64,000 bases of DNA, taken from assembly GCF_002128425.1 (NCBI RefSeq), contig NZ_NESS01000008.1:62001-126000 (forward strand). The letters are read 5' to 3'. Shown here one piece after another: positions 11,452 through 56,720 of this stretch. The position numbers and the translations under genes were made by a program. The notes below the pieces were generated by a model that was not told where the DNA came from, made no database searches, and saw only the letters and a list, made by a program, of their open reading frames with translations. Numbering within the stretch: position 1 is the first letter of the stretch; every line of letters begins with the position of its first letter. Origin of the DNA: Gottfriedia acidiceleris (GTDB lineage Bacteria; Bacillota; Bacilli; Bacillales; Bacillaceae_G).

Positions 11452-11456
11452 AAAGA

Positions 11457-34936: not shown

Positions 34937-34975
34937 TAAAAAGAGCTAATCATATTTTGATTAGCTCTTTTTTAT
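34937..34975. terminator. Bidirectional terminator
   Basis: AAGAGCTAATCA pairs with TGATTAGCTCTT with A/T runs on both flanks; it serves the repeat-protein gene (+) and overlaps the end of the transporter gene (-). Confidence 0.85.
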
Positions 34976-36294: not shown

Positions 36295-36993
36295 TTATTT
36301 TCCTTTCTCACGATACTCTTTTGGAGTAATTCCCTCAATTTTACGGAATAAAGTACTAAAGTAATGCTGACTATTAAAGCCTGAGTTTTCTGCCACATCG
36401 GATATGTTCCAATTTGGATTATTTGTTAAAAATCGCTTAGCAGCTTTTATTCTATAGTCTATTAAATATTCTGAAAACGATACACCAACTTCTTCGTGAA
36501 ATTTTCTACTTAAATAAGTATGATTCGTGTGAACCTCTTTAGCTACGTCAGAAAGAGATAGTTTTTCAGCGAAATGATCATGAATATATAAAAGAGTTTG
36601 ATGTATTAAACTAGAATACTGGTTTGACGTATCAGTATCACTATATTTAGATAAAACTTTATATAATTCACTTTCAATGATTGGCTTTGTTAAATAATCT
36701 AGAACGCCGATTCGGATTGACTGTTGAGCATAATCAAAACTTTGATATGCTGTAACCATAATAATATCTACGTCCTTATTTTGTGCTCTAAGCTCTTCGC
36801 CAAACTCTAATCCAGAACGTCCAGGAAGATTAATATCTAGAAATGCTATGTTAATTTTATGATTTTGATTAATTGTTATTGCTTGGCATGCATCAGCAGC
36901 TTTATAAAACTTCCATAATGGAAACATATTTTTTATCAAATATTCCATTTGTTCAAGCTCTAATGGTTCATCATCTACTAATAATACATTCAT
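36295..36993 (-). CDS. Response regulator, REC plus AraC-type HTH
   Basis: The receiver domain has the acidic pair in LLVDDEP (residues 5-10), phospho-acceptor D53 in AFLDINLPG, T81 in MVTAYQ and K103 in DYLTKP. The C-terminal ~100 residues form an AraC-type double helix-turn-helix (LSLSDVAKEVHTNHTYLSRKF and NISDVAENSGFNSQHYFSTLF). AraC-type proteins bind two direct half-sites ~21 bp apart; such sites occur upstream of three transcription units in this window. It is 15 bases after the kinase gene, with GGAGGGA upstream. Target genes are inferred. Confidence 0.93.
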   Translation of the reverse strand: MNVLLVDDEPLELEQMEYLIKNMFPLWKFYKAADACQAITINQNHKINIAFLDINLPGRSGLEFGEELRAQNKDVDIIMVTAYQSFDYAQQSIRIGVLDYLTKPIIESELYKVLSKYSDTDTSNQYSSLIHQTLLYIHDHFAEKLSLSDVAKEVHTNHTYLSRKFHEEVGVSFSEYLIDYRIKAAKRFLTNNPNWNISDVAENSGFNSQHYFSTLFRKIEGITPKEYREKGK

Positions 36994-37008: not shown

Positions 37009-37758
37009 TTACTCTTTAGAGTCATATATAAGTGGCCAAACGACTTTAACATTTGTTCCTGATTCATTTGATGTAATCAGTACATGTCCACTGTTACCAA
37101 AATATAGTTGTAATCTCTTTTTTATATTGTCTAATCCATGGCCTTCTTGATTAGAAAAAGAATTAGTCATTCCCAATAAACCATTATCAATTACTTCTAA
37201 ACAAACTAGCTCAGAATCTTGATAGAATAGAATATTCAGTAAGGCATCTCCAACCTTTTTTTCTAAACCGTGTTTAAATGAATTTTCTACTAAGGTTTGC
37301 AAAATAAAAGGGGGGACTAGCGCATGATATAAATCTTTTGGACATTCTAACTGAGTTTTAAGACGCTCTCCAAACCGTAGACTTTGGATGTCTAAATAAT
37401 ATTGAGTATATTGTATTTCTTGATCTAAAGGAATTAATGGCTCTGACGATTTATATTTAAATTTTAAAAATTGAGAGAATGTTTCTAGAGCCCGGATTAA
37501 TTCGGAGGTTCGATTTAAACGCGCTAAGCTTAATATGACATTAAGTGTATTAAATAAAAAGTGCGGTTGAATTTGTTGGTTTAATTTATTGTATTGAGCT
37601 TCTTGTAATGCATGCTCTAATCGAATTTCTCTATTTTTATTTTCAAGTAAGTCAATTCTTTTTTCAAAGATAAACAAAAATAATAAAGCAATAGCTCCCA
37701 TAATAGGAGCTAAAATAAATAGCATAATTAGTAAAGTAAATCCCTCGTAACTAAGCAT
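37009..37758 (-). CDS. Sensor histidine kinase, LytS/YesM (HisKA_7TM-less) type
   Basis: A 249-residue kinase with one membrane helix (residues ~6-31) and no recognisable extracellular sensor. The phospho-acceptor is H66 in QQIQPHFLFNTL (His_kinase, PF06580), followed by an N-box VENSFKHG and a G-box GHGLDNIKKRL. The start at 37758 has GAGG six bases upstream; a TTG 12 bases earlier overlaps that site. It opens the operon with the AraC-type regulator and the SSS transporter. With no sensor of its own, it probably hears its signal through a partner, and the transporter is the obvious candidate. Confidence 0.9.
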   Translation of the reverse strand: MLSYEGFTLLIMLFILAPIMGAIALLFLFIFEKRIDLLENKNREIRLEHALQEAQYNKLNQQIQPHFLFNTLNVILSLARLNRTSELIRALETFSQFLKFKYKSSEPLIPLDQEIQYTQYYLDIQSLRFGERLKTQLECPKDLYHALVPPFILQTLVENSFKHGLEKKVGDALLNILFYQDSELVCLEVIDNGLLGMTNSFSNQEGHGLDNIKKRLQLYFGNSGHVLITSNESGTNVKVVWPLIYDSKE

Positions 37759-38113
37759 GAAGAACCTCAAATAGTTATTTTAGTAATATTTTTAATTTTT
37801 TTGAAAACTTTGTTTATAAGTGTTGAATGATGATTTCTATTAAAGAAGATGGTTGATTTCAACTACAGTTGCTCGCATTCTATGGGATGAGAGTGAGTAT
37901 CCTTGTTGTGTTTCATTCCAAGGTAGTCCCAGCGCCTTCTCACATTTTCCATAGGAGCCTAGAACATTTTGTTCCGATTAACTTTCTATTTATAATCCTA
38001 TTTAAAAACGATTTAATATTTTTAATAGAAGAAGGTTGATTTCCACGTTAATATAGCAGGATTAAGTTTATATTCACATCATTTCCTTCTCTTCACGCCT
38101 ATAAGAATACTAT
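37759..38113. other. Gap between the ABC operon and the kinase operon
   Basis: No gene supported. It should hold the kinase-operon promoter near 37770-37850, carries repeat copy 3 (37851-37886) and a further short piece of it near 38029-38041, and separates the two - strand units. No clear terminator for the ABC operon was seen. Confidence 0.5.
37851..37886 (-). repeat. Dispersed intergenic repeat, copy 3
   Basis: On the - strand it reads CCCATAGAATGCGAG then CTGTAGTTGAAATCAA, matching copy 1 at 5661-5694 with a handful of changes. The end motif GTGGAAATCAACC recurs at 38029-38041. Confidence 0.55.
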
Positions 38114-39100
38114 TTAATTAATTATGTGACAAGCAACTTGATGATTTTGCTCAGATAATTTTAATTCAGGTACTTTAGTTTTGCAAATATCGATCGCGAA
38201 AGGGCATCTTGTGTGAAAACGACAGCCGCTTGGAGGATTGATTGGAGAAGGTACATCTCCTGTTAAGATGATTCGTTCTCTTTCATGCACTGGATTTGGC
38301 ACTGGAATAGCAGATAATAGTGCACGTGTATAAGGATGCTGCGGATTTTCGAAAATAGATTTTTTATCGGCAATCTCAACAATTTTTCCTAAATACATTA
38401 CCATTACTCGGTCAGAAATATGTCTTACTACACCTAAATCATGTGAGATGAAAAAAAAGGTAAGTGAGAATTTTTTCTGTAATGATTTTAATAAGTTTAA
38501 TACTTGGGCTTGGATTGAAACATCTAGTGCAGATACTGCTTCATCACAAATGATTAGTTTTGGATCAACTGCAAGTGCACGTGCAATTCCGACACGTTGA
38601 CGTTGACCACCACTAAATTCATGTGGGTATCGATCCATTGCTTCAGGTCTTAATCCAACATGTCCTAATAATTCCTCAATTCTAGCTTTACGTTGTTCTT
38701 TTGGAACGACATTTTGAATGGCTAATGCTTCACCTAAAATTTGTCCAATTGTTTGTCTAGGGTTAAGTGAGGCAAACGGATCTTGGAAGATTACTTGTAG
38801 ATCCTTTCTTATTTTACGCATTTCTTTTTTTCCTAAGCTTAATAAATCTTTTTCTTTAAAATGAATGCTTCCACTTGTCGGCTCGTCTAATCTTAGGATG
38901 GCTCTACCAGTAGTAGACTTACCACAACCGGATTCTCCAACTATACTTAAAGTTTCTCCTTCATAAATGTGGAAGCTAATATCGTCGACAGCTTTTACAT
39001 GATTAACCGTTCTTCCTAAAATGCCACCTTTAATTGGAAAGTATTGTTTTAAATGATCTACATTAAGGAGTATTTTTTTATCCACTAGTTGTAATGCCAT
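38114..39100 (-). CDS. ABC importer ATPase, OppF/DppF type
   Basis: Energises a peptide/nickel-family importer. Walker [10 protein letters not shown], signature [15 protein letters not shown], Walker [13 protein letters not shown] and H-loop FISHDLG are intact. A C-terminal Cys-rich oligopeptide-transporter tail ([18 protein letters not shown]...CH) is present. 328 residues. Its start overlaps the last base of the upstream ATPase gene. Fourth gene of the importer operon. The family transports peptides, nickel, sugars or other solutes; gene context here favours a nitrogenous compound. Confidence 0.92.
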
Positions 39101-40125
39101 TATTCAATCCCTACTTTCTCTTTGATGGAATGCTCTGTTTCCCATTGTGATGTGTACATCCAACAGCTGACCTCAGTATTTTTATCAATTGTTTGTAAAT
39201 CCGGCACTGACTGATGACAAATTGCCTTTGCGTGTGCGCATCGAGGTGCAAAACTACAGCCTTTAGGCATATTGAATGGACTTGGTACAGTACCAGGAAT
39301 TGTTGTTAATTCATCTTGATCCATATCAAGACGTGGAAGAGAGTTTAATAACCCGATTGTGTATGGATGCTTAGGACTATTAAAAAGTTCTTTTGCTGAA
39401 GTATATTCCACGATTCTTCCAGCGTACATGACAGCTACTTGATCGCAAGTCTCATAAACTACGCCTAAATCATGTGTAATTAATATAACTGCTGTACCGA
39501 GTTCCTTTTGAAGTGATTTAATTAATTCAAGAATTTGAGCTTGAATAGTCACATCAAGAGCGGTAGTTGGTTCATCTGCGATTAGCACTTCTGGATGACA
39601 AGCAAGTGCCATTGCGATCATAACTCTTTGTCTCATTCCACCACTAAGTTCATGTGGTTCTTGCTTTGCACGTTTTTCAGGAGAAGGGATCCCTACAAGT
39701 CGCAGCATTTCTACTGCTTTATCCCAAGCTTCCTTTTTGCTTAATTTTTGGTGAAGACGAATCGCTTCTGCAATTTGTTCGCCAGCTGAATAAACAGGAT
39801 TTAAAGATGTCATTGGCTCTTGAAAGATCATCGAAATTTCATTTCCTCGAATGGAACGCATCTGTTTTTCAGTTTTTGCTAGTAAGTCTTCACCTTTAAA
39901 AAGAATACTTCCACCAGTTATTTTTCCTGGAGGAGAGGGTATTAATCGTAAAAGGGATAATGAAGTAATACTTTTACCACTTCCAGATTCTCCTACTATT
40001 CCAAGTGTTTCACCTTTTTTTAATTTAAAGCTAATTCCATTAACTGCTTTGCTAATTCCATCTTCTGTATAAAAGTAGGTCTGCAGATTATTAACCTCAA
40101 GAATTGTTTCATCAATTTTTTTCAT
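39100..40125 (-). CDS. ABC importer ATPase, OppD/DppD type
   Basis: Partner ATPase of 341 residues. Walker A GESGSGKS, signature LSGGMRQRVMIAMAL, Walker B LIADEPTTALD and H-loop LITHDLG are present, with the C-terminal tail GCSFAPRCAHAKAICH. It lies 12 bases after the permease gene, with GGAGG upstream of the ATG. Confidence 0.92.
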   Translation of the reverse strand: MKKIDETILEVNNLQTYFYTEDGISKAVNGISFKLKKGETLGIVGESGSGKSITSLSLLRLIPSPPGKITGGSILFKGEDLLAKTEKQMRSIRGNEISMIFQEPMTSLNPVYSAGEQIAEAIRLHQKLSKKEAWDKAVEMLRLVGIPSPEKRAKQEPHELSGGMRQRVMIAMALACHPEVLIADEPTTALDVTIQAQILELIKSLQKELGTAVILITHDLGVVYETCDQVAVMYAGRIVEYTSAKELFNSPKHPYTIGLLNSLPRLDMDQDELTTIPGTVPSPFNMPKGCSFAPRCAHAKAICHQSVPDLQTIDKNTEVSCWMYTSQWETEHSIKEKVGIE

Positions 40126-40137
40126 GATTGTACCTCC

Positions 40138-41058
40138 CTAATTCAAGTCAACTCGTTTATTAAAGTATCGGTATAATATATCAACAGCTAGATTCATAAA
40201 TACAAAGATGACTGAAGCGATTAATACGCCACCTTGAACCATAGGTAAATCTCTTGTTCGAATTGCATCGACTATTAATCTACCAAGTCCATTAATTGCA
40301 AAAACTGACTCTGTTAAAACGGTACCGCCAAGTAATGCACCAAATTGTAGACCAACAACAGTAATAACTGGAATTAATGCATTTTTTAGACCGTGTTTGT
40401 AAATAATGATATGTTCCTTTAAACCTTTTGCTCTTGCTGTACGCATATAGTCTTGACGAACAACTTCTAACATACTTGATCTAGTCATTCTAGCTACAAT
40501 TGCAGCACCCCCTGCACCTAATGTTAATGCTGGTAGTACCATATGTTTAAACGTTCCCCAACCAGCAACTGGAAATATATGAAGATTAACTGAAAAGAAG
40601 TAGATTAGCATTAAACCAAACCAGAAACTTGGTAAAGAGATTCCTAGTAAAGCGACAATCATAATTGTAATATCAGCTACTGAGTACTGTTTCGTCGCTG
40701 ATATAATTCCTGCTAACATACCAAGTACAACAGTAATGAAAATACTAGCAAGTGCAAGTTCTATTGTAATTGGCAAACGAATCATAATCTCATCTAATAC
40801 TGGACGATTATTTCGAAGTGATTCGCCGAAATCTCCTTGAAGTACATGGTATACATAATCGAAATACTGAATAGCGACAGGACGATCAAGTCCAAGTTGA
40901 TGACGAATCATTTCGATTGTTTGTTTCGTAGCACCTTCACCAGCAAGTAGAGTTGCTGGATCTCCTGGAACCATCTGCATGATAAGGAAAACGACTAAGC
41001 TTACACCAAGTAAAACTGGAATAGTTTGTATAATTCTTCTAACAATAAATAGAAACAT
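40138..41058 (-). CDS. ABC importer permease, OppB/DppB type
   Basis: A 306-residue permease with six membrane helices. The opening FIVRRIIQTIPVLLGVSLVVFLIMQMVPGDPA is typical (residues 4-35), with LGLDRPVAIQYF following, and the EAA loop is near ARMTRSSMLEVVRQDYMRTARAKGL. It follows the C-type permease by 12 bases; the usual order is B then C, and here it is reversed. Confidence 0.92.
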   Translation of the reverse strand: MFLFIVRRIIQTIPVLLGVSLVVFLIMQMVPGDPATLLAGEGATKQTIEMIRHQLGLDRPVAIQYFDYVYHVLQGDFGESLRNNRPVLDEIMIRLPITIELALASIFITVVLGMLAGIISATKQYSVADITIMIVALLGISLPSFWFGLMLIYFFSVNLHIFPVAGWGTFKHMVLPALTLGAGGAAIVARMTRSSMLEVVRQDYMRTARAKGLKEHIIIYKHGLKNALIPVITVVGLQFGALLGGTVLTESVFAINGLGRLIVDAIRTRDLPMVQGGVLIASVIFVFMNLAVDILYRYFNKRVDLN

Positions 41059-41070
41059 TTACTTTCCTCC

Positions 41071-41973
41071 TTATTTTTTCATTCTTGGATCAAGAGCATC
41101 TCTTAGTCCATCCCCGAAAATATTAAATCCTAATACAAGTGTTGAAATTGCGATACCTGGAAATAAGGCGATGTGGGGTGCAGTGAATAAATAATCACGT
41201 CCACTACTTAACATAGCTCCCCATTCTGGAGAAGGAGGCTGAGCACCTAATCCGAGGTATGATAAGCCAGCTGCTGATAAAATCGCTGTTGCAAGTTTTA
41301 ACGTAGCTTGGACAATTATTGGCGAAAGAATATTCGGAAAAATATGTTTAAAAATAATTGTTGCATCAGTTGCACCTAATGAACGAATTGCATCTATATA
41401 CTCAAGCTTTCTAACAGATAATGTAGATCCCCTAACGATTCGTGCAAACGTTGGGATTGAAAAGATACCAACAGCTACCATTACATTAATAAGACTAGGA
41501 CCAAGCGCACTAATAATTGCAAGTGCTAATAAAATTCCAGGGAACGCTAGTAAAACATCAACAACCCTCATAATAATTGTGTCGATCCATTTTCCGTAAT
41601 AACCTGCTAATAACCCGAGAGTGATTCCGAAAATTGCTCCAAATAAGACAGATATGAAACCGACAGAAATTGAGAGACGACTTCCATAAATGATTCTGCT
41701 TAAAATATCTCTTCCTTTATCATCTGTTCCCATCCAATGTTCTAGTGAAGGAGTGTGCAGTTTGTTCATTAAATCAATTGCAAAAGGATCCTTCGGCGAA
41801 ATGAGTGGTGCAAAAATAGCTACTAAAATATAAAAAAGTACTATATATCCTCCAACTAGTGCCAATTTATTTTTACTAAACTTCTTATAAAATACTTTCC
41901 ATCTTTTTAGTTTTTGAGATTCTTTTTTTTCTAATTTGATTTCATTGTTATTCAATACAATCTCTGGTTTCAT
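41071..41973 (-). CDS. ABC importer permease, OppC/DppC type
   Basis: First gene of the importer operon, 300 residues from the ATG at 41973, which has AAGGGGG seven bases upstream; a longer frame from 42009 is unsupported. Marks: the N-terminal RWKVFYKKFSKNKLALVGG, then HWMGTDDKGRDILSRIIYGSR, and the EAA loop VRGSTLSVRKLEYIDAIRSLG. It diverges from the binding-protein gene; the shared gap holds the activator half-sites. Confidence 0.92.
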   Translation of the reverse strand: MKPEIVLNNNEIKLEKKESQKLKRWKVFYKKFSKNKLALVGGYIVLFYILVAIFAPLISPKDPFAIDLMNKLHTPSLEHWMGTDDKGRDILSRIIYGSRLSISVGFISVLFGAIFGITLGLLAGYYGKWIDTIIMRVVDVLLAFPGILLALAIISALGPSLINVMVAVGIFSIPTFARIVRGSTLSVRKLEYIDAIRSLGATDATIIFKHIFPNILSPIIVQATLKLATAILSAAGLSYLGLGAQPPSPEWGAMLSSGRDYLFTAPHIALFPGIAISTLVLGFNIFGDGLRDALDPRMKK

Positions 41974-42044
41974 TCTTTTTCCCCCTTTTCTTTGTTTAAA
42001 TTTATGCAAAATTGGAATTGAAGTAAATATAATGCGGAAAAGCA

Positions 42045-42107
42045 GTAAAGATAATTAAAAAACGAGTAAAGATTCTGAAAATATAAAATTTTATTTTTTT
42101 TTATAAT
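42045..42107 (+). promoter_or_regulatory. Phased activator site and -10 for binding protein 1
   Basis: Half-sites GTAAAGAT at 42045-42052 and 42066-42073 are 21 bp apart; 28 bases later comes TATAAT (42102-42107). There is no -35 at the expected place (AAATAT). A weaker third half-site GTAAATAT is at 42023. The gap is shared with the divergent importer operon. Confidence 0.75.
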
Positions 42108-42185
42108 TTGAATAAGCCTACGTACTCAGGAAAAATGGTGAATTAAGAGAATCATAGGGCAAGTATTAAGAGGAGGAAGAAAACA

Positions 42186-43742
42186 ATGAAGAAAAAGACA
42201 GCTGGATTATTATTTGCATCATTATTAACAATTTCTACAGCGCTTGCTGGTTGTACATCTGACCAAACAAGCAGTAGTGCAACAGGAACAAAAGCAATAG
42301 CAGGAGGAACTTTGGTCGTAGCTAGATTATCTGATGCGACTACATTAGATCCACATTTTATTACTGATATACCATCAGCAAACGTTGTTTATGAAAAGGT
42401 ATATGAAACTTTAGTTGAACCAGATAAAAATATGGAACCACAGCCTCTTTTAGCAACAGAATGGAAGCAAGTAGATAACGTGACTTGGGAGTTCAAATTA
42501 CGTCAAGGCGTTAAGTTCCAGGATGGATCACCATTTAATGCAGATGCAGTTAAAACAAATTTTGATCGAGTGCTTGACCCAAAAACTGCATCACCTCAGG
42601 CTGGTAAATTTGAAATGATAAAAGAAGTTAAAGTGGTAGACGATAACACAGTTCAATTTATTTTGAAATATCCATATGCTCCACTTTTATCAATTTTAAT
42701 GAGCAATGAAGGAAGTATTATTAGTCCAAAATCGATTAAAGAAAACAGTGATAAAATTGGACGAAATCCAGTTGGAACTGGTCCTTATGTATTTAAATCT
42801 TGGAAATCAGGAGAAGAAATTAAAATTGAAAAAAATAAAGATTACTGGGGAAATAAACCTAAAATTGATGGTGTAGTCTTTAAAGTAGTTCCTGAAGATG
42901 CTACAAGACTAGCGATGATTGAAACTGGTGAAGCACATGTAACTGACCAAGTGCCAGTAACAGAAATTGATCGTATAGAAGCTTCTGACACAATGGATTT
43001 ATACCGTACAGATGGACTAGCTGTTGAATATTTAAGCTTCAATACAAAGAAAAAACCATTTAATGATGTTCGTGTCCGTAAAGCGATTGCACATGCAATT
43101 CAAGTAGATTCAATTATTAAAGGCGTATATAACAATGTTGGAACTAAAGCAAATTCAACAATGAGCCCTAAAGTTTTTGGTTATGATTCAAATATTAAAG
43201 GCTATGACTACGATATTAATGAATCTAAGAAGCTATTAAAAGAAGCAGGAATTAAAGACGGCCTATCTTTTACACTTACAACTAGTGATCGTAAAGAAAG
43301 AATAAATATGGCTGAAGTAATTCAATCACAATTAAAAGGTATTGGTATTAATGTAAAAATCCAAGTTCTTGAATACGGGGCTTATATTGATACAATCGCA
43401 AAAGGTGGACATCAAGTTGCGATTGGTGGATGGGGAAATGCTACTGGTGATGGGGACTATAACCAATTTAACTTATTTGATAGTAAATCCCAAGGTGCAG
43501 CAGGAAATAGTTCATTCTATAGTAACCCTGAAGTAGATAAGCTAATCGAATCAGCTCGTCAAGAAGCGGATAGTGAAAAACGTAAAGATCTATATGCTCA
43601 AGCACAAAAAATTGAAAACGAAGATGTACCATATGTTCCTATTCGTAACTATGAGCATTTAGCAGTTACTGGCTCAACAGTTAAAGGACTTTGGTTAAAC
43701 CCAGCAAGTTATTTAATGCTTGATGATGTAACAGTGAAATAA
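42186..43742 (+). CDS. Solute-binding lipoprotein 1 (SBP_bac_5)
   Basis: Extracellular binding protein of the peptide/nickel family, 518 residues. The lipoprotein signal ends in LAGC with lipid anchor C23. Family 5 marks are LVEPDKNMEPQPLLATEW, YEFKL-type WEFKLRQGVKFQDGSPFNADAV and the C-terminal YSNPEVDKLIESAR. GAGGAGG precedes the ATG. It is divergent from the four-gene importer that lacks a binding protein of its own, so it very likely feeds that importer. A terminator follows. About 60% similar by eye to binding protein 2 at 46965. Confidence 0.92.
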   Translation: MKKKTAGLLFASLLTISTALAGCTSDQTSSSATGTKAIAGGTLVVARLSDATTLDPHFITDIPSANVVYEKVYETLVEPDKNMEPQPLLATEWKQVDNVTWEFKLRQGVKFQDGSPFNADAVKTNFDRVLDPKTASPQAGKFEMIKEVKVVDDNTVQFILKYPYAPLLSILMSNEGSIISPKSIKENSDKIGRNPVGTGPYVFKSWKSGEEIKIEKNKDYWGNKPKIDGVVFKVVPEDATRLAMIETGEAHVTDQVPVTEIDRIEASDTMDLYRTDGLAVEYLSFNTKKKPFNDVRVRKAIAHAIQVDSIIKGVYNNVGTKANSTMSPKVFGYDSNIKGYDYDINESKKLLKEAGIKDGLSFTLTTSDRKERINMAEVIQSQLKGIGINVKIQVLEYGAYIDTIAKGGHQVAIGGWGNATGDGDYNQFNLFDSKSQGAAGNSSFYSNPEVDKLIESARQEADSEKRKDLYAQAQKIENEDVPYVPIRNYEHLAVTGSTVKGLWLNPASYLMLDDVTVK

Positions 43743-43752
43743 GGAAATTAAA

Positions 43753-43793
43753 GATGAAACAGCATAATCATTTATGCTGTTTCAGTTTTTTGA
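43753..43793 (+). terminator. Terminator of binding protein 1
   Basis: GAAACAGCATAA pairs exactly with TTATGCTGTTTC over TCAT, then TTTTTT. Confidence 0.88.
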
Positions 43794-43840
43794 CAATATC
43801 CATCTAGTTTTAAACAGACGTAAGAACAGGAGGAGAAAAA

Positions 43841-45319
43841 ATGATTGATTTGCTATTAGTTAATGGAACTGTAATCACAATGGATACACAAAGAAGGATT
43901 ATCCAAAATGGTTCAGTTGCTATTCATAATGGGAGAATAGTAGACGTTGATTTGACTGAAAACTTGAAAACTAAGTATGAGGCTAAAAAAGTAATTGATT
44001 GTAGTCATCAATGTATTATACCTGGATTAATAGATGTACATGGTCATGGTGGTCATTCGATGTTTAAAACAATTGCGATGGAGAATATCGATTTTTGGAT
44101 GCCGATTATGACGAATACGTATAAGCATTATGTGACTGATGATTTTTGGTATTACGAAGGAAAGCTATCTGCACTTGAACGTTTAAAAGCAGGTATAACA
44201 ACAGGTGTTAGTGTATTAGGTTCAATGCCTAGATCTGATGATCCGATATTTGCAATAAACCATGCAAAAGCCTACAACGAAATAGGTGTTCGTGAAGTAG
44301 TTTGTACTGGTCCATGTAACCCACCATGGCCACATTCATTTAGTAGATGGGTTGATGGGAAAAGAGTTGAGAAAGAAGTAACTTATGAGGAAGTATTAAA
44401 AGGAGCAGAAGCAGTTATTGAGGCATTGAATCACGCAAATGATGACCGAACAAGAGCTTTTATAACACCGTTTGTAATCGTAACGTCCGTGGACCCTTCT
44501 TATCCGACTTCACCAGATCGACTTTACGGTTTAACAAAACATGATCTTTATCAAGCTAAAAAAATAAGAGAGATTGCTAGGAAATATAATACAAGAATTC
44601 ACTCAGATGCATTTGGTGGAATGATTCATTTAGCAATTCAGGATAAAGAAAATGCGTTATTAGGTCCTGATGTTCATCTTCAGCATTGTCGAGGAATTTC
44701 ATTCGATGAAGCCAAAATATTAGCTGAAACTGGTACAAATATTAGTGCTTCTCCTGGTTTTGGACAAGTTCATGCACGTACACCAATCACAGAATTAATT
44801 GAAATGGGAGCAACTGTTGCGATTTCAACGGATGGAACTTCCCCATCTACGAGTTTCGATTTATTCCAAGCAATGAGGAAAACACAGTTTGTACATCAAG
44901 CAGCACTCAGAGACTATTACTATTTACCACCTGGAAAGCTTTTAGAAATGATCACGATTGATGCAGCAAAATGTATTGGTTGGGATGATGAATTAGGTTC
45001 ACTTGAGGTTGGAAAAAAAGCAGATGTCATCACAGTTAATCTTCATCAACCACATTTGACTCCAGAGTATATGCATGTTCATCGTTTAGTATTTCAAGCA
45101 GTTGCAAATGATGTAGACCACGTGATTGTTGATGGCAAACTAATTATGGAAGGTAGAAATGTACATACCGTTCATGAAAGCAAAGTGTTAAATGAAGCAA
45201 ATGAAGAAGCTTTTGCAACGATTAAACGCGCTGGATTAGAAAAATATATGCAACCTACAAAGTATTTCTGGGGTCATGCTCGTGCTTATGTTGACGAGAT
45301 GAGATATGTTGAAAACTAA
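43841..45319 (+). CDS. Amidohydrolase 1 (AtzA/TrzN/SsnA-like)
   Basis: A 492-residue metal-dependent hydrolase of the amidohydrolase superfamily. The barrel's metal residues are visible: H67 and H69 in DVHGHGGH, H254 in RIHSDAFGG, H282 in LQHCRG and D331 in ISTDGTSPS. Where deaminases of this group often have HxxE after the third strand, this one has HSDA, so the exact chemistry is open. Members deaminate or dechlorinate heterocycles such as triazines, guanine or S-adenosylhomocysteine. GGAGGAG precedes the ATG. Follows binding protein 1 and precedes amidohydrolase 2, whose start lies 31 bases past its stop. Confidence 0.85.
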   Translation: MIDLLLVNGTVITMDTQRRIIQNGSVAIHNGRIVDVDLTENLKTKYEAKKVIDCSHQCIIPGLIDVHGHGGHSMFKTIAMENIDFWMPIMTNTYKHYVTDDFWYYEGKLSALERLKAGITTGVSVLGSMPRSDDPIFAINHAKAYNEIGVREVVCTGPCNPPWPHSFSRWVDGKRVEKEVTYEEVLKGAEAVIEALNHANDDRTRAFITPFVIVTSVDPSYPTSPDRLYGLTKHDLYQAKKIREIARKYNTRIHSDAFGGMIHLAIQDKENALLGPDVHLQHCRGISFDEAKILAETGTNISASPGFGQVHARTPITELIEMGATVAISTDGTSPSTSFDLFQAMRKTQFVHQAALRDYYYLPPGKLLEMITIDAAKCIGWDDELGSLEVGKKADVITVNLHQPHLTPEYMHVHRLVFQAVANDVDHVIVDGKLIMEGRNVHTVHESKVLNEANEEAFATIKRAGLEKYMQPTKYFWGHARAYVDEMRYVEN

Positions 45320-45350
45320 AATAAAATGTACTAATTCGAAGGGAGAAAAA

Positions 45351-46844
45351 ATGAAAACGAAGCTAAAGGGAAGATATGTAATTGGTTTTGATGGACGAGA
45401 ACATGTCATATTGGAAAATGCAGAGATTGTATATGAAAAAGAAACAATTTTGTTTGTTGGAAAAAACTATTCGGATGAAGTAGATCAAGTGATTGACGTT
45501 GGAAATGCGATTCTTAGTCCTGGTTTTATTGATTTAAATGCATTAGGTGACATCGATCATGATATTTTGCATTTAGAAGCTAATTCAAATAGACAAAAAA
45601 ACCTCCTTTGGTCTGAAAACTATGTAAAGAATGGGCATCATGAGCTAATGAGTGAGGAGGAAGAAGCATTTAAATCTTTATATGCATATTCTCAGCTTAT
45701 TTTAAATGGAATTACTACTGCTATGCCGATTACGTCCGTATTTTATAAAAATTGGGCTGAAACATATGAAGAGTTAGAAGCTGCAGCGAATCATGCGGCA
45801 AGTCTTGGATTAAGAATTTACCTTGGACCAAGCTATCAAGCTGGAATTAGAATCGTAGAGCCAAATGGAAATATTAAAATTCATTGGGATGAAAAAGCGG
45901 GAGAAGAAGGATTACAAAGAGCAGTAAAGTTTATAGAACAATTCGATGGTGCATTTGATGGATTAGTAAGAGGGATGTTGGCTCCAGAAAGAATTGAATC
46001 GCAGACAGAAGAAATTTTATTAAAAACAAAATATTATAGTAAGCAATTGAACGTTCCAATCAAGCTCCATGCAGCGCAAGGTAGCTTTGAATTCAATACC
46101 ATTTTAAAAGAACATGGTGTTACACCAATCAGATATTTATATAATCTTGGATTTCTAGGTCAAAATACAGGAATACCACATGCTCATTTTGTTGCGGGTT
46201 TTAGTGAAGCTAATTACAATTTTGAAGATGATATTTCACTTTTAAAAGAAACAAATACAACTGTTATCCATTGTCCACTTATTATTGGTAGACATGGTTC
46301 AGGGCTTGAATCGTATGCGAAATATAGGAAGGAAGGAATTAATATTGCATTAGGTACGGATACTTTTCCTCCAGATATATTTCAAAATGTACGTACTGGT
46401 AGTATGCTTTCAAGATTTGTAGAAAAAGAGGTTGAAGGATCTACATATGCTGACTTCTTCAATTCCATCACTCTCGGAGCAGCGGCATTTCTTAACCGTG
46501 AAGATTTAGGTCGAATTGCTGTTGGTGCAAAGGCAGATATCATTGCAATTGATTTAGATGGATTTCATATGGGAGTAACGGATGATCCAATTCGAACAAT
46601 GTTTGTAAGTGGCTCTGGTAGAGATGTAAAACTATGTATTATTAATGGAAGAATTGTAATGGAAGATCGAATGATTCCGAATCTTGATTTAGAAGAATTA
46701 AAACAAAAAGGCCAATTGTATTTTAATAAGATGAGAAAAGGCTATATGGAAAGGGATTACGAGCAACTTTCAGAAAATGATTTATTTCCTCCTTCTTTTA
46801 AAAAGGTTGATTCAATTAAACAAGCAGAAGCAAAATCAAATTAA
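45351..46844 (+). CDS. Amidohydrolase 2, variant without HxH motif
   Basis: A 497-residue relative of the chlorohydrolase/deaminase group. The start at 45351 has AAGGGAG seven bases upstream. The normal first metal motif HxH after PGFIDL is replaced by NAL (N63, L65) in GFIDLNALGDIDHDI; the later ligands look present (H240 in KLHAAQ, H277 or H279 in PHAHF, D337 in LGTDTFPPD). It may use a different metal set, or none. The C-terminal beta part (GAKADIIAIDLDGF) is normal. Likely in one unit with amidohydrolase 1. Confidence 0.82.
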   Translation: MKTKLKGRYVIGFDGREHVILENAEIVYEKETILFVGKNYSDEVDQVIDVGNAILSPGFIDLNALGDIDHDILHLEANSNRQKNLLWSENYVKNGHHELMSEEEEAFKSLYAYSQLILNGITTAMPITSVFYKNWAETYEELEAAANHAASLGLRIYLGPSYQAGIRIVEPNGNIKIHWDEKAGEEGLQRAVKFIEQFDGAFDGLVRGMLAPERIESQTEEILLKTKYYSKQLNVPIKLHAAQGSFEFNTILKEHGVTPIRYLYNLGFLGQNTGIPHAHFVAGFSEANYNFEDDISLLKETNTTVIHCPLIIGRHGSGLESYAKYRKEGINIALGTDTFPPDIFQNVRTGSMLSRFVEKEVEGSTYADFFNSITLGAAAFLNREDLGRIAVGAKADIIAIDLDGFHMGVTDDPIRTMFVSGSGRDVKLCIINGRIVMEDRMIPNLDLEELKQKGQLYFNKMRKGYMERDYEQLSENDLFPPSFKKVDSIKQAEAKSN

Positions 46845-46855
46845 TTGAAAAACTA

Positions 46856-46918
46856 GTAAAGAAACTGAAAAAACACGTAAAGATTTTCAAAATTAATTAT
46901 CAGAATATTTTATATAAT
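46856..46918 (+). promoter_or_regulatory. Phased activator site and -10 for binding protein 2
   Basis: Half-sites GTAAAGAA (46856-46863) and GTAAAGAT (46877-46884) are 21 bp apart; 28 bases later comes TATAAT (46913-46918). No -35 is seen (AAATTA). Confidence 0.75.
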
Positions 46919-46964
46919 TAGATAAATATTTGAAAGACAAACTATAAGCAGGGAGGAATTGTCA

Positions 46965-48530
46965 TTGAAATTAAAATCTGGAATAAGTAAATTTTTTCTA
47001 GTACTGTTTTCTGCTGTCACAATCACAGGCTGTTCATCTAATCAAGAAGTAGGTACGAAAGCAAATGGACAAACTAATGATTCAAAAGGTGGAAGCACGC
47101 TAGTAATTGCTCGATTGTCAGATGCCGAAAATTTAGATCAGCAATTTATGTCTACAATAAATGCAGCGAGTGTTACTCATCATAAAATTTATGAAGGTCT
47201 AGTCCAGCGAGATAAAAATAACGAAATTCAACCAATGTTAGCAGAGTCATGGAATCAAATCAATGATACAACTTGGGAATTTAAACTACGACATGATGTG
47301 AAGTTTCATGATGGTACGCCATTTAATGCGGAAGCTGTAAAAAAGACATTTGATCGTTTATTAGATCCTAAAGTTGCTTCACCAAGAGCTGTTGTATTCA
47401 AAATGGTAAAAGAAGTAAAAGTAGTTGATGAATATACAGTTCAATTTATTTTAAGTGAGCCTTTCTCGCCACTTCTTTCAATTCTAGCAAACCATGAAGG
47501 TGGAATTATAAGTCCTAAAACAATTGATAAATATGGTAAAAATATTATACAAGAACCAAATGGAACAGGACCTTTTAAATTTAAATCATGGTCCCCAGGC
47601 CAGGAAATTACATTAGTTAAAAATGAGGACTACTGGGGTAAAAAACCAAAGATCGACAAGGTTGAGTTCAAGGTTGTTCCAGAAGACTCAACAAGAATTT
47701 CAATGATTGAAACAGGAGAAGCTCAAATTGCAGAACCACTTCCAGTAGCAGTTATGAATCAAGTTGAATCATCCTCGGCTATGGAAGTGTACAGAAGTGA
47801 AGGTTACGGTACAGAGTATATCGGATTCAATGTAACAAAAAAACCGTTTAATGACGTACGTGTTCGTAAAGCTATCGCTCATGCAGTTGAAATGGATTCA
47901 ATTATAAAAGGTGTATTTAACAATGTCGGTAAAAAAGCGAATTCAGCAATGGGCTCAAAAGTATTCGGATACGATGAGCAACTAAAAGCATACAATTACA
48001 ATTTAAAAGAAGCTAAGAAACTATTAACAGAAGCTGGTTATCCAGATGGATTTGATGCAACAATCCTAACGATGGATAGTAAAGAAAGAGTAAATTTAGC
48101 AGAAGTAATTCAATCGCAATTAAAAGGAATTGGCATTAATTTAAAAGTACAAGTGATGGAATACGGTTCATTCGTTGAAAAAGTTAATAAAGGTCAATCA
48201 GAAATGTTTATTATTAGCTGGAGAAACGCAACAGGAGATGCTGATTACAATCAGTACAACTTATTCCACTCAGACTCACGAGGAGCTGCTGGAAATACAT
48301 TCTTCTATAGCAATCCAAAAGTTGATGAATTAATTAATGCTGGAAGAAAAGAAAAAGACGAAGCAAAACGTAAAGAAATATACGCTAATGCACAAGAAAT
48401 TGAAATGGATGATTCACCTTATATTCCTGTAAGAGTAATTGAAAATGTCGCTGCAATCTCAAAAAATGTAAAAGGCTTCTCAATCAGCCCTTCAGGATAT
48501 TTAGAGATTAACGATGTGACGATTAAATAA
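46965..48530 (+). CDS. Solute-binding lipoprotein 2 (SBP_bac_5)
   Basis: Paralogue of binding protein 1, 521 residues, with lipobox TITGC (C23). The TTG at 46965 is the chosen start: GGGAGG lies eight bases upstream, while the TTG at 46959 is too close to it. Marks: WEFKLRHDVKFHDGTPFNAEAV and NEDYWGKKPKIDKVEFKVV. No permease or ATPase genes are next to it, so it probably shares the importer at 38114-41973, giving that importer a second substrate range. It has its own promoter with the shared activator sites. Confidence 0.9.
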   Translation: MKLKSGISKFFLVLFSAVTITGCSSNQEVGTKANGQTNDSKGGSTLVIARLSDAENLDQQFMSTINAASVTHHKIYEGLVQRDKNNEIQPMLAESWNQINDTTWEFKLRHDVKFHDGTPFNAEAVKKTFDRLLDPKVASPRAVVFKMVKEVKVVDEYTVQFILSEPFSPLLSILANHEGGIISPKTIDKYGKNIIQEPNGTGPFKFKSWSPGQEITLVKNEDYWGKKPKIDKVEFKVVPEDSTRISMIETGEAQIAEPLPVAVMNQVESSSAMEVYRSEGYGTEYIGFNVTKKPFNDVRVRKAIAHAVEMDSIIKGVFNNVGKKANSAMGSKVFGYDEQLKAYNYNLKEAKKLLTEAGYPDGFDATILTMDSKERVNLAEVIQSQLKGIGINLKVQVMEYGSFVEKVNKGQSEMFIISWRNATGDADYNQYNLFHSDSRGAAGNTFFYSNPKVDELINAGRKEKDEAKRKEIYANAQEIEMDDSPYIPVRVIENVAAISKNVKGFSISPSGYLEINDVTIK

Positions 48531-48542
48531 TCTAATTTTTCT

Positions 48543-48584
48543 GCAAGGGGAGGTTCACCCTGATTTAGGGGTGAACTTTCTTGC
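48543..48584 (+). terminator. Hairpin after binding protein 2
   Basis: GTTCACCC (48553-48560) pairs with GGGTGAAC (48568-48575), followed by TTTCTTG, a weak U-run. Confidence 0.55.
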
Positions 48585-48600
48585 GTGTAGAAATGAAACA

Positions 48601-48722
48601 ATAACTTACTCATAAAGGGTTCATAAGTAAGTAAAAACAGCAAAAGAGTGAAGATAACTTACTTTTAACAGGTTCATGAGTAAGTAAAACAGCAAAAAAG
48701 TGAAGATAACTTACTCAGAAGA
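48601..48722 (+). repeat. Tandem 52-53-base repeat
   Basis: Unit 1 is 48601-48653, unit 2 is 48654-48705, and a partial unit runs from 48706. Each begins ATAACTTACT, has GGTTCAT-AGTAAGTAAAA-CAGCAAAA and ends GTGAAG. Within a unit ACTTAC and GTAAGT can pair. No coding potential. Confidence 0.75.
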
Positions 48723-48724
48723 GT

Positions 48725-48780
48725 AGGAGGCTCAAGAATCTCGCGCCATGGAAAGTGAGCACCTTGTAGTGGAAATTAAA
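48725..48780 (+). repeat. Dispersed intergenic repeat, copy 2
   Basis: Reads AGGAGGCTCAAGAATCTCGC, then CCATGGAAAGTGAG and TTGTAGTGGAAAT, close to copy 1 at 5641-5694. It directly follows the tandem repeat. Confidence 0.65.
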
Positions 48781-48838
48781 ACGCATACTTATTTAACAAC
48801 AACACTTCAAAATGGTTTAGATCAATTGACTACAATAA

Positions 48839-48901
48839 GTAAAAATAACTTAAAAATACGTAAACATACTAAAATCAAAATATTTCAATCAGACTTATAA
48901 T
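48839..48901 (+). promoter_or_regulatory. Phased activator site and -10 for the amidohydrolase triplet
   Basis: Half-sites GTAAAAAT (48839-48846) and GTAAACAT (48860-48867) are 21 bp apart; 28 bases later comes TATAAT (48896-48901). The -35 position (AATCAA) is not a consensus match. Confidence 0.7.
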
Positions 48902-48944
48902 TAAATAGAATTAAAATTTAATGTTGGATGGAAGGGTGAGTATA

Positions 48945-50192
48945 TTGTCAAAATCGTATTGGTTAACAAATGTGAGTCTGGAAAATGGTTTTACTTATAA
49001 TGACAATGAAGTAATTAACGGAACTGCAACTGGAAAGTACAATGTTAAAATTGAAAATGGAAAAATTGCTTCTATCGAATTAGTTAGTGATTTAATTACT
49101 GATCAATTGCCACAATATGATGTGCAAGGCCTTCTAATGGTTCCTTCATTTAAAGAGATGCATATTCATATTGATAAAACTTATTATGGTGGACCATGGA
49201 AAGCGTGTATGCCAGCAACGAATGGTGTAAAAACACGTATTGAAGAAGAACAAATTTTATTACCAAAATTATTGCCAACTGCTAAAGAAAGAGCAGAAAA
49301 AATGCTAGATCTATTATTAAGTTATGGTGCGACTCATATTCGTACACATTGTAATATTGATCCAGTTATCGGATTAAAAAACTTAGAAGCAACTTTGCAA
49401 GCTTTAGAAGGATATAAAGATAAATTAACACATGAAATTGTTGCATTCCCCCAACATGGACTTTTAAGAAGTCATTCTGTCGAACTAGTAAGAGAAGCAA
49501 TGAAATATGGAGCAAATCTAGTAGGTGGAGTTGATCCAGCTTCAATCGATGAAAATATCGAACGTTCACTTGAGACGATTATGGATATAGCAGTTGAATC
49601 AAATTCTGATATCGATGTTCATTTACATGATCCAGATCATCTTGGATTATTTACAATGCAAAGATTAGCAACATTAACTGAAAAAGCAGGTTGGCAAGGA
49701 AGAGTAACAGTGAGTCATGCAAGTGGTTTAGCAGATCTTTCTGTTCCAGAAGCTACTGCAATTGCTGAGAGATTTGCTGAATTAGGAATTTCAATTACCT
49801 CTACCGTTCCAATTTTTAGAACAATTCCAATTCCTTTACTAAGTGAAAAAGGTGTAAAAGTCGAATTAGGAAATGACAGCATTACAGATCATTGGTCTCC
49901 ATTTGGAATAGGGGATAACCTTGAGAAAGTTGGACGACTTGCTGAACGATTTAGATTTATTGAAGAAAAAACACTTGCTAATAGTCTTGGATTTATTACA
50001 GGCGGAGTAACTCCTTTAAATAATGAAGGTGAAAGAGCATGGCCAAATGTAGGAGATGAAGCAAATATTGTACTTGTAGAAGCTACTTGCACAGCAGAAG
50101 CAGTTGCGAGAAGAGCAAAACGAGCTGCGGTTATTTTTAAAGGTAATGTTGTAAGTGGTTCAATTTCAAATCTTGAATCAACAACAGTTTAA
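48945..50192 (+). CDS. Amidohydrolase 3, cytosine-deaminase-like (triplet gene A)
   Basis: A 415-residue amidohydrolase of the CodA-like branch. Metal and active-site positions: H73 and H75 (EMHIHIDKT), Q170 in AFPQHG, H226 in DVHLHD, H258 in VSHAS and D311 in GND. In E. coli cytosine deaminase the H is followed by a catalytic Glu (HCDE); here the same place is D229, so the proton shuttle is changed. The TTG at 48945 is chosen: AAGGGTGA is five bases upstream, and the paralogues start at the same point (xSYWLxNV). First of three tandem paralogues. Confidence 0.85.
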   Translation: MSKSYWLTNVSLENGFTYNDNEVINGTATGKYNVKIENGKIASIELVSDLITDQLPQYDVQGLLMVPSFKEMHIHIDKTYYGGPWKACMPATNGVKTRIEEEQILLPKLLPTAKERAEKMLDLLLSYGATHIRTHCNIDPVIGLKNLEATLQALEGYKDKLTHEIVAFPQHGLLRSHSVELVREAMKYGANLVGGVDPASIDENIERSLETIMDIAVESNSDIDVHLHDPDHLGLFTMQRLATLTEKAGWQGRVTVSHASGLADLSVPEATAIAERFAELGISITSTVPIFRTIPIPLLSEKGVKVELGNDSITDHWSPFGIGDNLEKVGRLAERFRFIEEKTLANSLGFITGGVTPLNNEGERAWPNVGDEANIVLVEATCTAEAVARRAKRAAVIFKGNVVSGSISNLESTTV

Positions 50193-50211
50193 GTTAAAGA
50201 GAGTGATTTAG

Positions 50212-51453
50212 ATGAATCAATCATATTGGCTTAAGAATGTAAAACTTGATAGCGGATTTGTATTTGAAAATGGAAGAATTGAAAGTACTGAGACTACACT
50301 TTACAATTTACTAATTAACGATGGGAAAATTGAACAATTACAATTGGCTGATTTTCCATTACAAACAGATTTACCAGTTCAGGATGCGAAAAGTTTACTT
50401 GCTTTACCTGCTTTCAAAGAAATGCATAATCATTTGGATAAGACTTATCTTGGACTTCCATGGAAGGCTTGTATTCCTGCTGCTAATCTAGTAGAGAGAT
50501 TAAATTTGGAAGCGGCCGAACTTGCTGAACTAGCTGAAACAGGTCAACATCGTGCTGAACAAATGCTTCATTTATTATTAAAAGGCGGCGCAACCCATGT
50601 TCGAACACATGTAAATATTGATCCGTATATTGGACTTAAAAATTTAGAAGAAATTCAAAATGCACTTTATACGTATAAAGGTAAAATGACCCACGAAATT
50701 GTTGCCTTTCCTCAGCATGGATTACTTCGCACAAATAGCAAATCATTTATGAAGACAGCGATGAGAGAGGGAGCAACAATCGTCGGAGGATTAGATCCTG
50801 GTGGTATTGATCAAAATATTGAACTTTCATTATTTGAAATGGTTGATCTAGCAGTACAGTTTGATGCTGATATAGATATTCATATTCATGACCCAGGCCA
50901 TCTTGGTTTTTATACAATACAAAAACTAGTTTCATTTATTGAACAAGCTGGTTGGTATAATCGCGTAGCAGTAAGCCACGCATTTGCACTTGGTGATGTA
51001 CCGAAAGATGAATCAGTAGAAATGGCTAGCAAACTAGCAAGCCTAGGAGTATCGATTATGTCGACTGTTCCGATTAACAGAGTAATGCCTCCTGTTGATT
51101 TACTACATTCAAAAGGTGTACATGTTGCTCTAGGCTGTGATGGTTTCTATGATTCTTGGTCTCCACATGGAACAGGCGATATGTTAGAAAAAGCAGGAAG
51201 ATTAGCTGAGAGATACAATTGGAAAGATGAATACGGGCTATCTCAAACATTGCAATTTATAACTGGTGGTATAAAGACTCTTGATGAAGAAGGAAACCTG
51301 TTATGGCCAAAGGTTGGGGATGAAGCAAGTATGGTTTTAGTAGATGCATCATGTTCTGCAGAGGCTGTTGCAAGACGCGCAAAACGTACTGCTGTAATGA
51401 ATAATGGAAATATTGTTTATGGTGGACTGAATTACGAATCAGCTTTGAAGTAA
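50212..51453 (+). CDS. Amidohydrolase 4, cytosine-deaminase-like (triplet gene B)
   Basis: Paralogue of the previous gene, 413 residues, 19 bases after it. It keeps EMHNHLDKT (HxH), AFPQHG, DIHIHD, VSHAFALGD and GCDGFYDSW. It shares the Asp in place of the catalytic Glu. AGAGAGTG lies before the ATG, a modest ribosome site. Differences around the barrel loops (ACIPAANLV against ACMPATNGV) suggest different substrates. Confidence 0.85.
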   Translation: MNQSYWLKNVKLDSGFVFENGRIESTETTLYNLLINDGKIEQLQLADFPLQTDLPVQDAKSLLALPAFKEMHNHLDKTYLGLPWKACIPAANLVERLNLEAAELAELAETGQHRAEQMLHLLLKGGATHVRTHVNIDPYIGLKNLEEIQNALYTYKGKMTHEIVAFPQHGLLRTNSKSFMKTAMREGATIVGGLDPGGIDQNIELSLFEMVDLAVQFDADIDIHIHDPGHLGFYTIQKLVSFIEQAGWYNRVAVSHAFALGDVPKDESVEMASKLASLGVSIMSTVPINRVMPPVDLLHSKGVHVALGCDGFYDSWSPHGTGDMLEKAGRLAERYNWKDEYGLSQTLQFITGGIKTLDEEGNLLWPKVGDEASMVLVDASCSAEAVARRAKRTAVMNNGNIVYGGLNYESALK

Positions 51454-51486
51454 AGTGACAATTGAATACAAGAAGGGGTGAAATTC

Positions 51487-52731
51487 ATGAAATCTAGCTA
51501 TTGGTTAAAAAATGCTCGATTAGAAATTGGTTTTGAAAAAGAAAACGGAAAAGTGATCGGTACTGCTACTGAATTATTTCATCTATTTATTGAAAATGGA
51601 AAGATCACTCGAATAACAAAAGACGAAACGGATATTACTAGTGAATTTACAGTTCAAGATGCAGACGGATTACTTGTTTTACCTTCTTTTATTGAAAAGC
51701 ATGTACATCTTGATAAAACATTAATGGGAGATGTATGGAGAGCTTGTACTCCAACTTCTAGTGTAATTGAACGATTTGAGAATGAAAAAATGGTTTTACC
51801 AACAATTGCTTCAAGTACGAAGGAGCGGGCAGAAGCTTTACTTGAAATCCTTTTAGCTTCAGGATCTACACATGTGAGAACGCATGTTGATATTTACCCA
51901 GAGGTTGGAATAAGAAATTTAGAGCAAGTTGAACAAGCATTAAGTAATTATTCGAACCGACTTAGTTCCGAAGTTGTTGCATTTGCTCAGCATGGATTAT
52001 TAAGATCAAATGCTTCCAATTATGTTAGAGAAGCCTTAAGAAATGGGGCAGGAATTGTTGGCTCAGTTGATCCTGCTATTGTAGATCAAAATATTGAAGA
52101 ATCATTATATCAACTTTATAATTTAGCGGTTGAAGCTGATGCAGATATTGATATACATTTACACGATCCAGGTCATCTAGGCACTTTTACGATGAAGCGT
52201 ATAGTGGAATTTACTAAGCAAGCAGGCTGGGAAGGAAGAGTAGCAATCAGTCATGCATTTGGCATAGGAGATGTCCCAAGGGAAGAAGCGTTTGATCTTG
52301 CAAACAGTTTTAGAGACGCAGGAATTTCAATTGTCACAAGTGTTCCGATTAATAGACAAATGCCTCCTGTTGAATTATTAAATGAACGTGGTGTCGAGGT
52401 AGCAGTAGGTAATGATAATATTTTTGATGTTTGGTCTCCACTCGGAACAGGCGATATTCTTGAAAGAGCGGGAAGACTAGCTGAACGCTTTAGATGGATT
52501 GATGAAGTATCTTTAGCACAAACATTAAAATATATTACAGGTGGAAAAACGCCATTAGATACTGATGGAAACCAAGTATGGCCAAAAATAGGAGATTTGG
52601 CAAATCTAGTATTAGTAGAAGCGAGCTGTTCAGCAGAAGCTGTTGCTAGACGCGCAAATCGTAAAGCTGTTATTTATAACGGGAAGATCGTTAGTGGTTC
52701 TTTAAGTGAAGAAAGATTGATTCGTAAATAA
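51487..52731 (+). CDS. Amidohydrolase 5, cytosine-deaminase-like (triplet gene C)
   Basis: Third paralogue, 414 residues, 33 bases after the second. The start at 51487 has AAGGGGTG six bases upstream and lines up with its paralogues. Motifs are EKHVHLDKT, AFAQHG (Pro of FPQ changed to Ala), DIHLHD, ISHAFGIGD and GNDNIFDVWSP. It is the most diverged of the three at the FPQ motif. Last gene of the unit. Confidence 0.85.
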   Translation: MKSSYWLKNARLEIGFEKENGKVIGTATELFHLFIENGKITRITKDETDITSEFTVQDADGLLVLPSFIEKHVHLDKTLMGDVWRACTPTSSVIERFENEKMVLPTIASSTKERAEALLEILLASGSTHVRTHVDIYPEVGIRNLEQVEQALSNYSNRLSSEVVAFAQHGLLRSNASNYVREALRNGAGIVGSVDPAIVDQNIEESLYQLYNLAVEADADIDIHLHDPGHLGTFTMKRIVEFTKQAGWEGRVAISHAFGIGDVPREEAFDLANSFRDAGISIVTSVPINRQMPPVELLNERGVEVAVGNDNIFDVWSPLGTGDILERAGRLAERFRWIDEVSLAQTLKYITGGKTPLDTDGNQVWPKIGDLANLVLVEASCSAEAVARRANRKAVIYNGKIVSGSLSEERLIRK

Positions 52732-56521: not shown

Positions 56522-56720
56522 ATAAATCACTCCAAGCTCATAGAATAAAAATTGAAATAATAGTAAATTAATTTGAAAAAGGCAATCAATACAATCTGAT
56601 ATACGAATTCCTTTTACTGCCAAAAACAACATAAACTGTGTAAGTTTTCAGACACTATTCCTCATTATAGCAAATAAAATAGAATTTGATTAGGATTTTG
56701 ACGGAAATAACGTGGTTTTT

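Follow-up and report, generated by a model that had tools for sequence, protein, structure and literature searches.

The window analysed here is a stretch of 64,000 nucleotides from Gottfriedia acidiceleris (contig NZ_NESS01000008.1) in which two sets of genes are divergently arranged. The minus strand encodes OppC, OppB, OppD and OppF, a histidine kinase, an AraC-type response regulator and a symporter-like (SSF-like) membrane protein, while the plus strand carries SBP1-AH1-AH2, SBP2 and AH3a-c (SBP, solute-binding protein; AH, amidohydrolase), preceded by operators 1, 2 and 3, respectively, each of which consists of two direct half-sites upstream of a TATAAT -10 hexamer (Table 1). Based on the sequence comparisons presented below, these three sites are probably (at a rough probability of 0.88) operators of the linked response regulator, which would bind them as a dimer and activate the flanking operons as a class II activator.

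The original prediction had placed the sites at positions 42045, 46856 and 48839 with a pitch of 21 bp and 28 bases to TATAAT, and this geometry proved correct to the base. The accompanying claim that a consensus -35 element is lacking was likewise borne out, as TTGACA is matched at only 0–3 of six positions at the three promoters (spacers of 16–18). The half-sites were correctly located but given too short: each is really 16 bp long and includes a second box, T..AAA, while position 3 of the distal half-site, given as A in the earlier pattern, is equally often C across relatives. The resulting consensus, GTMAAnATwnTnnAAA, comprises box A (GTMAAnAT) and, about one turn later, box B (T..AAA), and two boxes per half-site are what a double helix-turn-helix (HTH) AraC domain would be expected to read. 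In 17 sites aligned on the operator, both boxes were apparent in each half-site, the G of positions 1 and 22 and the T of position 2 being invariant (17/17); in 15 of these sites an A lies twelve bases downstream of the base at which the -10 begins. Mean information per column amounted to 1.12 and 1.09 bits in the half-sites, as against 0.31 and 0.32 bits in the flanks, although the search pattern itself contributed to the selection of positions 1–8, 22–29 and the -10. Box B is conserved in relatives though it formed no part of the earlier pattern (it does lie within the scanning matrix described below). In Metasolibacillus, whose site was first positioned by eye from the register, box A of both half-sites has diverged together with the first HTH motif, while the second HTH motif and most of box B are kept, which is suggestive of co-change between HTH and site.

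The pattern is rare in the organism's own genome (4.77 Mb, 45 contigs), where the exact 63-bp form matches three times, always within the window and before these operons. With up to three mismatches allowed, the window holds four matches, three of which have none, whereas 100 dinucleotide shuffles averaged 0.24 (maximum 2). The whole genome holds 42 (three at 0 mismatches, one at 2 and 38 at 3), and those at three mismatches represent background since the reversed control pattern yields a total of 39. A longer half-site pattern omitting the -10 matched at four places in the genome with up to three mismatches, three of them being the window sites (reversed control, one), so that no wider regulon was found elsewhere in the genome with this pattern. 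The fourth place, C7:835 (three mismatches), was at the level of the reversed control and was rejected. Thus, the exact pattern stands far above shuffled or reversed background, and the shuffles, the reversed patterns and the matrix scan rule out chance or AT-richness as the source of the sites. The pattern without the -10 identified no operator facing the divergent opp-kinase-regulator-SSF operon at up to three mismatches, nor was a convincing conserved promoter of that operon recognised when the intergenic regions were viewed by eye. Known RNA families gave no match at the gathering score between positions 30000 and 60000.

Conservation was assessed in relatives' loci, i.e. stretches around regulator homologues (loci and genomes carry our own L and G labels), the closest named ones being those of Gottfriedia species and unclassified Bacillus strains (84–98% identity). 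The Gottfriedia group, Rossellomorea, Peribacillus and other genera retain the operator at unchanged pitch and distance, the regulator being 43–58% identical outside the group. A matrix built from the six window half-sites only, and making no use of the -10, was run over 18 upstream regions, representing one or a few per lineage out of 30 long-flank regulator loci (L061–L077, L082–L094); 17 were regions between OppC and the divergent gene and one an SBP region (L093), those of L069 and L073 were stretched 80 bases into frames with too-early starts, and L088, L090 and L094, which lack Opp, lay outside the set. The best two-half-site match was positioned exactly 28 bases before a perfect TATAAT in 17 of the 18. 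Fifteen of these beat all 300 dinucleotide shuffles (including the window region, which is circular as it trained the matrix, and three from the Gottfriedia group), while L074 and L076 reached p values of 0.030 and 0.037. The remaining region, L093, was cut short in the scan; the full locus scores 23.2, with TATACT at 27. Across 15 sources, a pitch of 21 gave 19 strong matches and every other pitch between 17 and 32 gave 0–6, although the matrix and most of the loci had been picked through 21-bp sites.

The operator also accompanies target genes that have moved or changed. Relocated SBP genes keep it 1–3 kb past the SSF-like gene in L069–L072 (Rossellomorea and Bacillus sp. CH30_1T) and in L082 (at 14114); a transposase-type integrase gene (11059–11910) lies between the SSF-like and relocated SBP genes of L082. 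In some lower-identity lineages the gene that diverges from OppC and is preceded by the operator encodes an M24 peptidase (L085, L087, L089, L149, L150), in G065 the operator is found additionally before a gene pair resembling OppD/OppF at a distance of about 40 kb (L152), and in G232 (L148) imperfect half-sites lie before an acetamidase/formamidase-family gene and a permease gene. Where the kinase-regulator-SSF-like triad occurs without nearby Opp genes (L148, 7238–9632; downstream of the SSF-like gene in L088 and L090), an acetamidase/formamidase-family gene follows, as does an amino-acid-type permease in L090 and L148, a hint that amide nitrogen may be a common theme. Two further arrangements were observed: in L143 (618; G287:C4:86617) a match to the operator, located on another contig, precedes a short frame similar to the C-terminal part of MctP, a symporter, as well as a cytidine-deaminase-type gene, and in L145 (5920–7368; G212) a cytosine/purine-type permease gene directly follows the SSF-like gene.

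The co-occurrence of operator and regulator was surveyed in 397 genomes of the order, using the long pattern with up to two mismatches and a regulator threshold of E <= 1e-50. The operator was present in 38 genomes, the regulator in 56 and both in 37, i.e. the regulator accompanied 37/38 operator genomes versus 19/359 without an operator (Fisher p = 8e-37); the reversed control of the long pattern gave 0 among the genomes listed. In 281 genomes outside the earlier samples, some of them congeners of genomes already examined, the regulator was found in 20/20 operator genomes versus 13/261 others (p = 3e-22). Additionally, 72 of 76 sites lay within 15 kb of the regulator gene on the same contig, the exceptions being in G065, G010 and G287 (on another contig or 40 kb off) and in G037 (no regulator). 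A short pattern that accepted C as the third base of the distal half-site matched exactly in 19 of 119 relatives, namely 16 of the 28 regulator bearers (E <= 1e-30) plus G003, G055 and G105; with one mismatch 27 of the 119 matched, and the reversed control also gave scattered matches. The Gottfriedia-group genome G004 has neither the regulator (E <= 1e-30) nor a site nor SBP1 (E <= 1e-60). Since site and regulator are kept together in relatives, the site very probably serves this regulator to switch on a pathway of nutrient uptake and breakdown. The regulon claimed in the original prediction is thus supported by pattern rarity, conservation and the 37/38 co-occurrence, with the binder suggested by co-occurrence and linkage. 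Its extension to the whole region is not supported for the opp-kinase-regulator-SSF operon, which no site faces at up to three mismatches, or for the EamA and NCS2 genes past the amidohydrolase triplet.

Several observations weigh against this assignment. The relaxed patterns of the 119-relative and 397-genome surveys were written after relatives' sites had been seen, and, because related genomes are not independent, the fairer figure is that at genus level (regulator in 16/17 operator genera versus 7/118 others, p = 2e-14). Nineteen of the 56 regulator genomes gave no match at up to two mismatches; among eight of these that were inspected, G026, G071, G107 and G218 have diverged in-register sites and G104 has an in-register site with TATACT at 27, while G044, G109 and G207 show no site in the stretch covered. 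Conversely, G037 has an operator match without the regulator, G055 and G105 match the short pattern exactly without a regulator at E <= 1e-30, and G003 has three sites and SBP1 with a best regulator match of only 70.8 bits, although its regulator status cannot be judged as the contig starts 19 bases before the SBP1 site. Furthermore, co-occurrence and linkage would look alike for the regulator and for any other gene co-inherited with the cluster.

In the proposed mechanism the regulator, presumably phosphorylated by the neighbouring kinase (phosphorylation being the likely trigger), would bind as a head-to-tail dimer to the two 16-bp half-sites 21 bp apart, with its two HTH motifs reading boxes A and B of each. 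If the -10 is taken as -12 to -7 of a predicted start site, the half-sites begin at -69 and -48, which is the araI1/araI2 arrangement of AraC at araBAD of Escherichia coli, where two direct half-sites likewise lie 21 bp apart with the proximal one at the -35. The absent -35 would lie where box B of the proximal half-site is found. A class II activator site of the araBAD type replaces the -35, and an operator reaching this region is the usual activator layout; since the proximal half-site runs into the missing -35, the regulator would be expected to recruit RNA polymerase as a class II activator, thereby co-inducing the two binding proteins of the Opp-type transporter and five amidohydrolases. 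Unlike AraC, the regulator has a phospho-receiver rather than a sugar-binding N-terminal domain, and the half-site has a different sequence; no search was made for a distant site of the O2 type. Speculatively, the substrate is an amide or a nucleobase-like nitrogen compound.

It is unlikely that the regulator binds these sites but represses, or that it does both in the manner of AraC with the box at 42023 serving the divergent opp promoter. What speaks for such an arrangement is that 7 of the 23 sites under comparison carry a GTMAA box at an offset of exactly 22 bp on the upstream side; these seven all belong to the 17 that face a divergent opp operon (7/17 versus 0/6 others, too few for significance), and at other offsets within 60 bp the box was found only twice. 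This box (42023–42027 at operator 1, within the stretch 42023–42044) is possibly a third half-site. Speaking against repression are the lack of a -35 at the three promoters, whose operator reaches that region, and the fixed distance of 28 bases to the -10. Binding by another regulator inherited with the cluster, e.g. the LacI-type protein (55511–56632) or an unlinked AraC-type protein, is considered quite improbable: linkage alone names no binder, and the window has a LacI-type gene close by, as do the Gottfriedia-group loci L096 and L101, but the response regulator gene is within 15 kb of nearly all sites (72/76, as above), the LacI protein of the window had no match in the frames of other-genus loci (stretches that may be too short for exclusion), and the sites are direct repeats with two boxes per half-site, unlike the palindromes that LacI proteins usually bind. 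That the sites are phased A-tracts, acting as curved DNA or UP-like elements that stimulate the promoters without a specific protein, would fit the AAA runs recurring about every 10–11 bp through both half-sites in AT-rich DNA but is very improbable, as curvature requires neither the invariant G (positions 1 and 22) nor the T (position 2) seen in 17/17 (partly pattern-selected) sites and leaves the co-occurrence with the regulator gene unexplained.

Beyond the AH3 triplet lie genes for an EamA transporter and an NCS2-type permease and, farther on, the LacI-type gene on the minus strand. Among the NCBIfam matches listed, AH1 remained below every cut-off, and AH2 and AH3 passed only broad subfamily models. 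The AH3 family has three tandem copies here and in genus g69 (L147), two in Rossellomorea, Peribacillus and others (in the stretch covered) and none in some loci. The gap between oppF and the kinase gene measures 343 bp in the window (37771–38113), as compared to about 70 bp in L069. The protein encoded at 33972–34859 has a peptidoglycan-binding domain and a long tail made up of repeats (with 12/18-base and 30-base spacing), and long overlapping frames occur on the opposite strand.

Table 1. Operators, promoter elements and genes of the window (positions counted from its first base).
Feature	Coordinates	Strand	Basis
Operator 1, distal half-site GTAAAGATAATTAAAA	42045–42060	+	Sequence, pattern match, 17-site alignment
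Operator 1, proximal half-site GTAAAGATTCTGAAAA	42066–42081	+	Sequence, pattern match, alignment
-10 TATAAT of SBP1-AH1-AH2 promoter	42102–42107	+	Sequence, pattern match
GTAAA box, possible third half-site 22 bp before operator 1	42023–42027	+	Offset comparison
Operator 2, distal half-site GTAAAGAAACTGAAAA	46856–46871	+	Sequence, pattern match, alignment
Operator 2, proximal half-site GTAAAGATTTTCAAAA	46877–46892	+	Sequence, pattern match, alignment
-10 TATAAT of SBP2 promoter	46913–46918	+	Sequence, pattern match
Operator 3, distal half-site GTAAAAATAACTTAAA	48839–48854	+	Sequence, pattern match, alignment
Operator 3, proximal half-site GTAAACATACTAAAAT	48860–48875	+	Sequence, pattern match, alignment
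-10 TATAAT of amidohydrolase-triplet promoter	48896–48901	+	Sequence, pattern match
Divergent Na+/solute-symporter-like membrane protein, candidate sensor/transceptor	34972–36291	-	Profiles, fold model
Response regulator, receiver (residues 3–114) and AraC-type HTH (151–229), putative activator	36295–36993	-	Pfam, alignment
Histidine kinase PF06580, one N-terminal hydrophobic stretch	37009–37770	-	Pfam, hydropathy
Opp/Dpp-type ABC transporter, ATPases OppF, OppD and permeases OppB, OppC	38114–42009	-	Pfam
SBP1, family 5 solute-binding protein	42186–43742	+	
AH1, amidohydrolase family 1	43841–45319	+	
AH2, chlorohydrolase-type amidohydrolase, above NF004801 subfamily model cut-off	45306–46844	+	
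SBP2, family 5 solute-binding protein	46959–48530	+	
AH3a, AH3b, AH3c, tandem amidohydrolases related to cytosine deaminase, above NF005312 cut-off	48921–52731	+	

The regulator matched the Pfam models Response_reg (E 6e-23), HTH_AraC (1e-24, two stretches) and HTH_18 (9e-22), and its Asp53 and Lys103, corresponding to the conserved phospho-acceptor Asp and receiver Lys, were invariant in 19/19 aligned sequences. The PF06580 kinase gene adjoins that of the regulator, an order kept in relatives with Opp or SSF-like neighbours and reversed in the distant L094, and the order kinase-regulator-SSF-like protein is kept in most loci, including those with other targets. A crude hydropathy scan of six kinases revealed a single N-terminal hydrophobic stretch followed by the kinase core (the stretch being listed as overlapping segments in the window and L074 kinases), Pfam detected no sensor domain in four kinases scanned, and the window kinase matched His_kinase alone. 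The SSF-like protein (439 residues) narrowly misses the Pfam SSF cut-off (21.8 versus 22.8 bits) and falls well below that of TIGR00813 (56 versus 184); one of six relatives lies just above the SSF cut-off and five have no match, and two further groups could be linked to it by profile comparison (at probabilities of 100% and 98.9%). With a fold model that was only moderate in quality (pLDDT 69.2), the best Foldseek matches were SSS proteins (E 8e-8 to 1e-6). In L074, L076 and L077 its identity falls to as low as 22%, compared to 52–54% for the regulator, and this faster divergence might be that of a receptor changing its ligand. That the symporter-like protein acts as the sensor is speculative, and it may equally be a permease. 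With somewhat less than even odds, many bacilli may possess a three-part sensor composed of a sensor-less kinase, a separate, fast-diverging SSS-like signal protein (a split counterpart of CbrA) and an AraC-type regulator, the operator geometry of which would have been frozen across genera while its targets changed between Opp plus amidohydrolases, Opp plus M24 peptidase, and acetamidase-type amidase plus permease.

An AraC-type regulator with direct half-sites is of an already known kind. XydR of Clostridium cellulolyticum (PMC3572039) is an AraC-type response regulator of Firmicutes that similarly combines a receiver with an AraC-type HTH next to a histidine kinase gene. Its HTH domain binds upstream of metabolic-cluster genes, binding having been located by gel shift to stretches of ~250–270 bp in which common repeats were noted, and that text states that no consensus site was identifiable for the AraC/XylS activators studied (PMC3572039). 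The present system differs from XydR in that comparison defines a half-site of 16 bp at a constant pitch and distance from the promoter. Symporter-like membrane parts are likewise associated with two-component systems in the SSS-domain sensor kinases CbrA and MxtR/CrbS, in which the SSS part is fused to the kinase, whereas here it is encoded by a separate gene neighbouring that of a short PF06580 kinase (PMC7918813). No prior account of this operator, of the regulon in these genera or of a split symporter sensor was recognised among the matches listed from PMC full text. Because the two-box half-site, its pitch and its promoter distance are defined by comparison across 16 genera, genomes can be searched for targets and these used to look for the substrate, and the system lends itself to testing whether a separate, sensor-less kinase can have a symporter-like protein as its sensing part.

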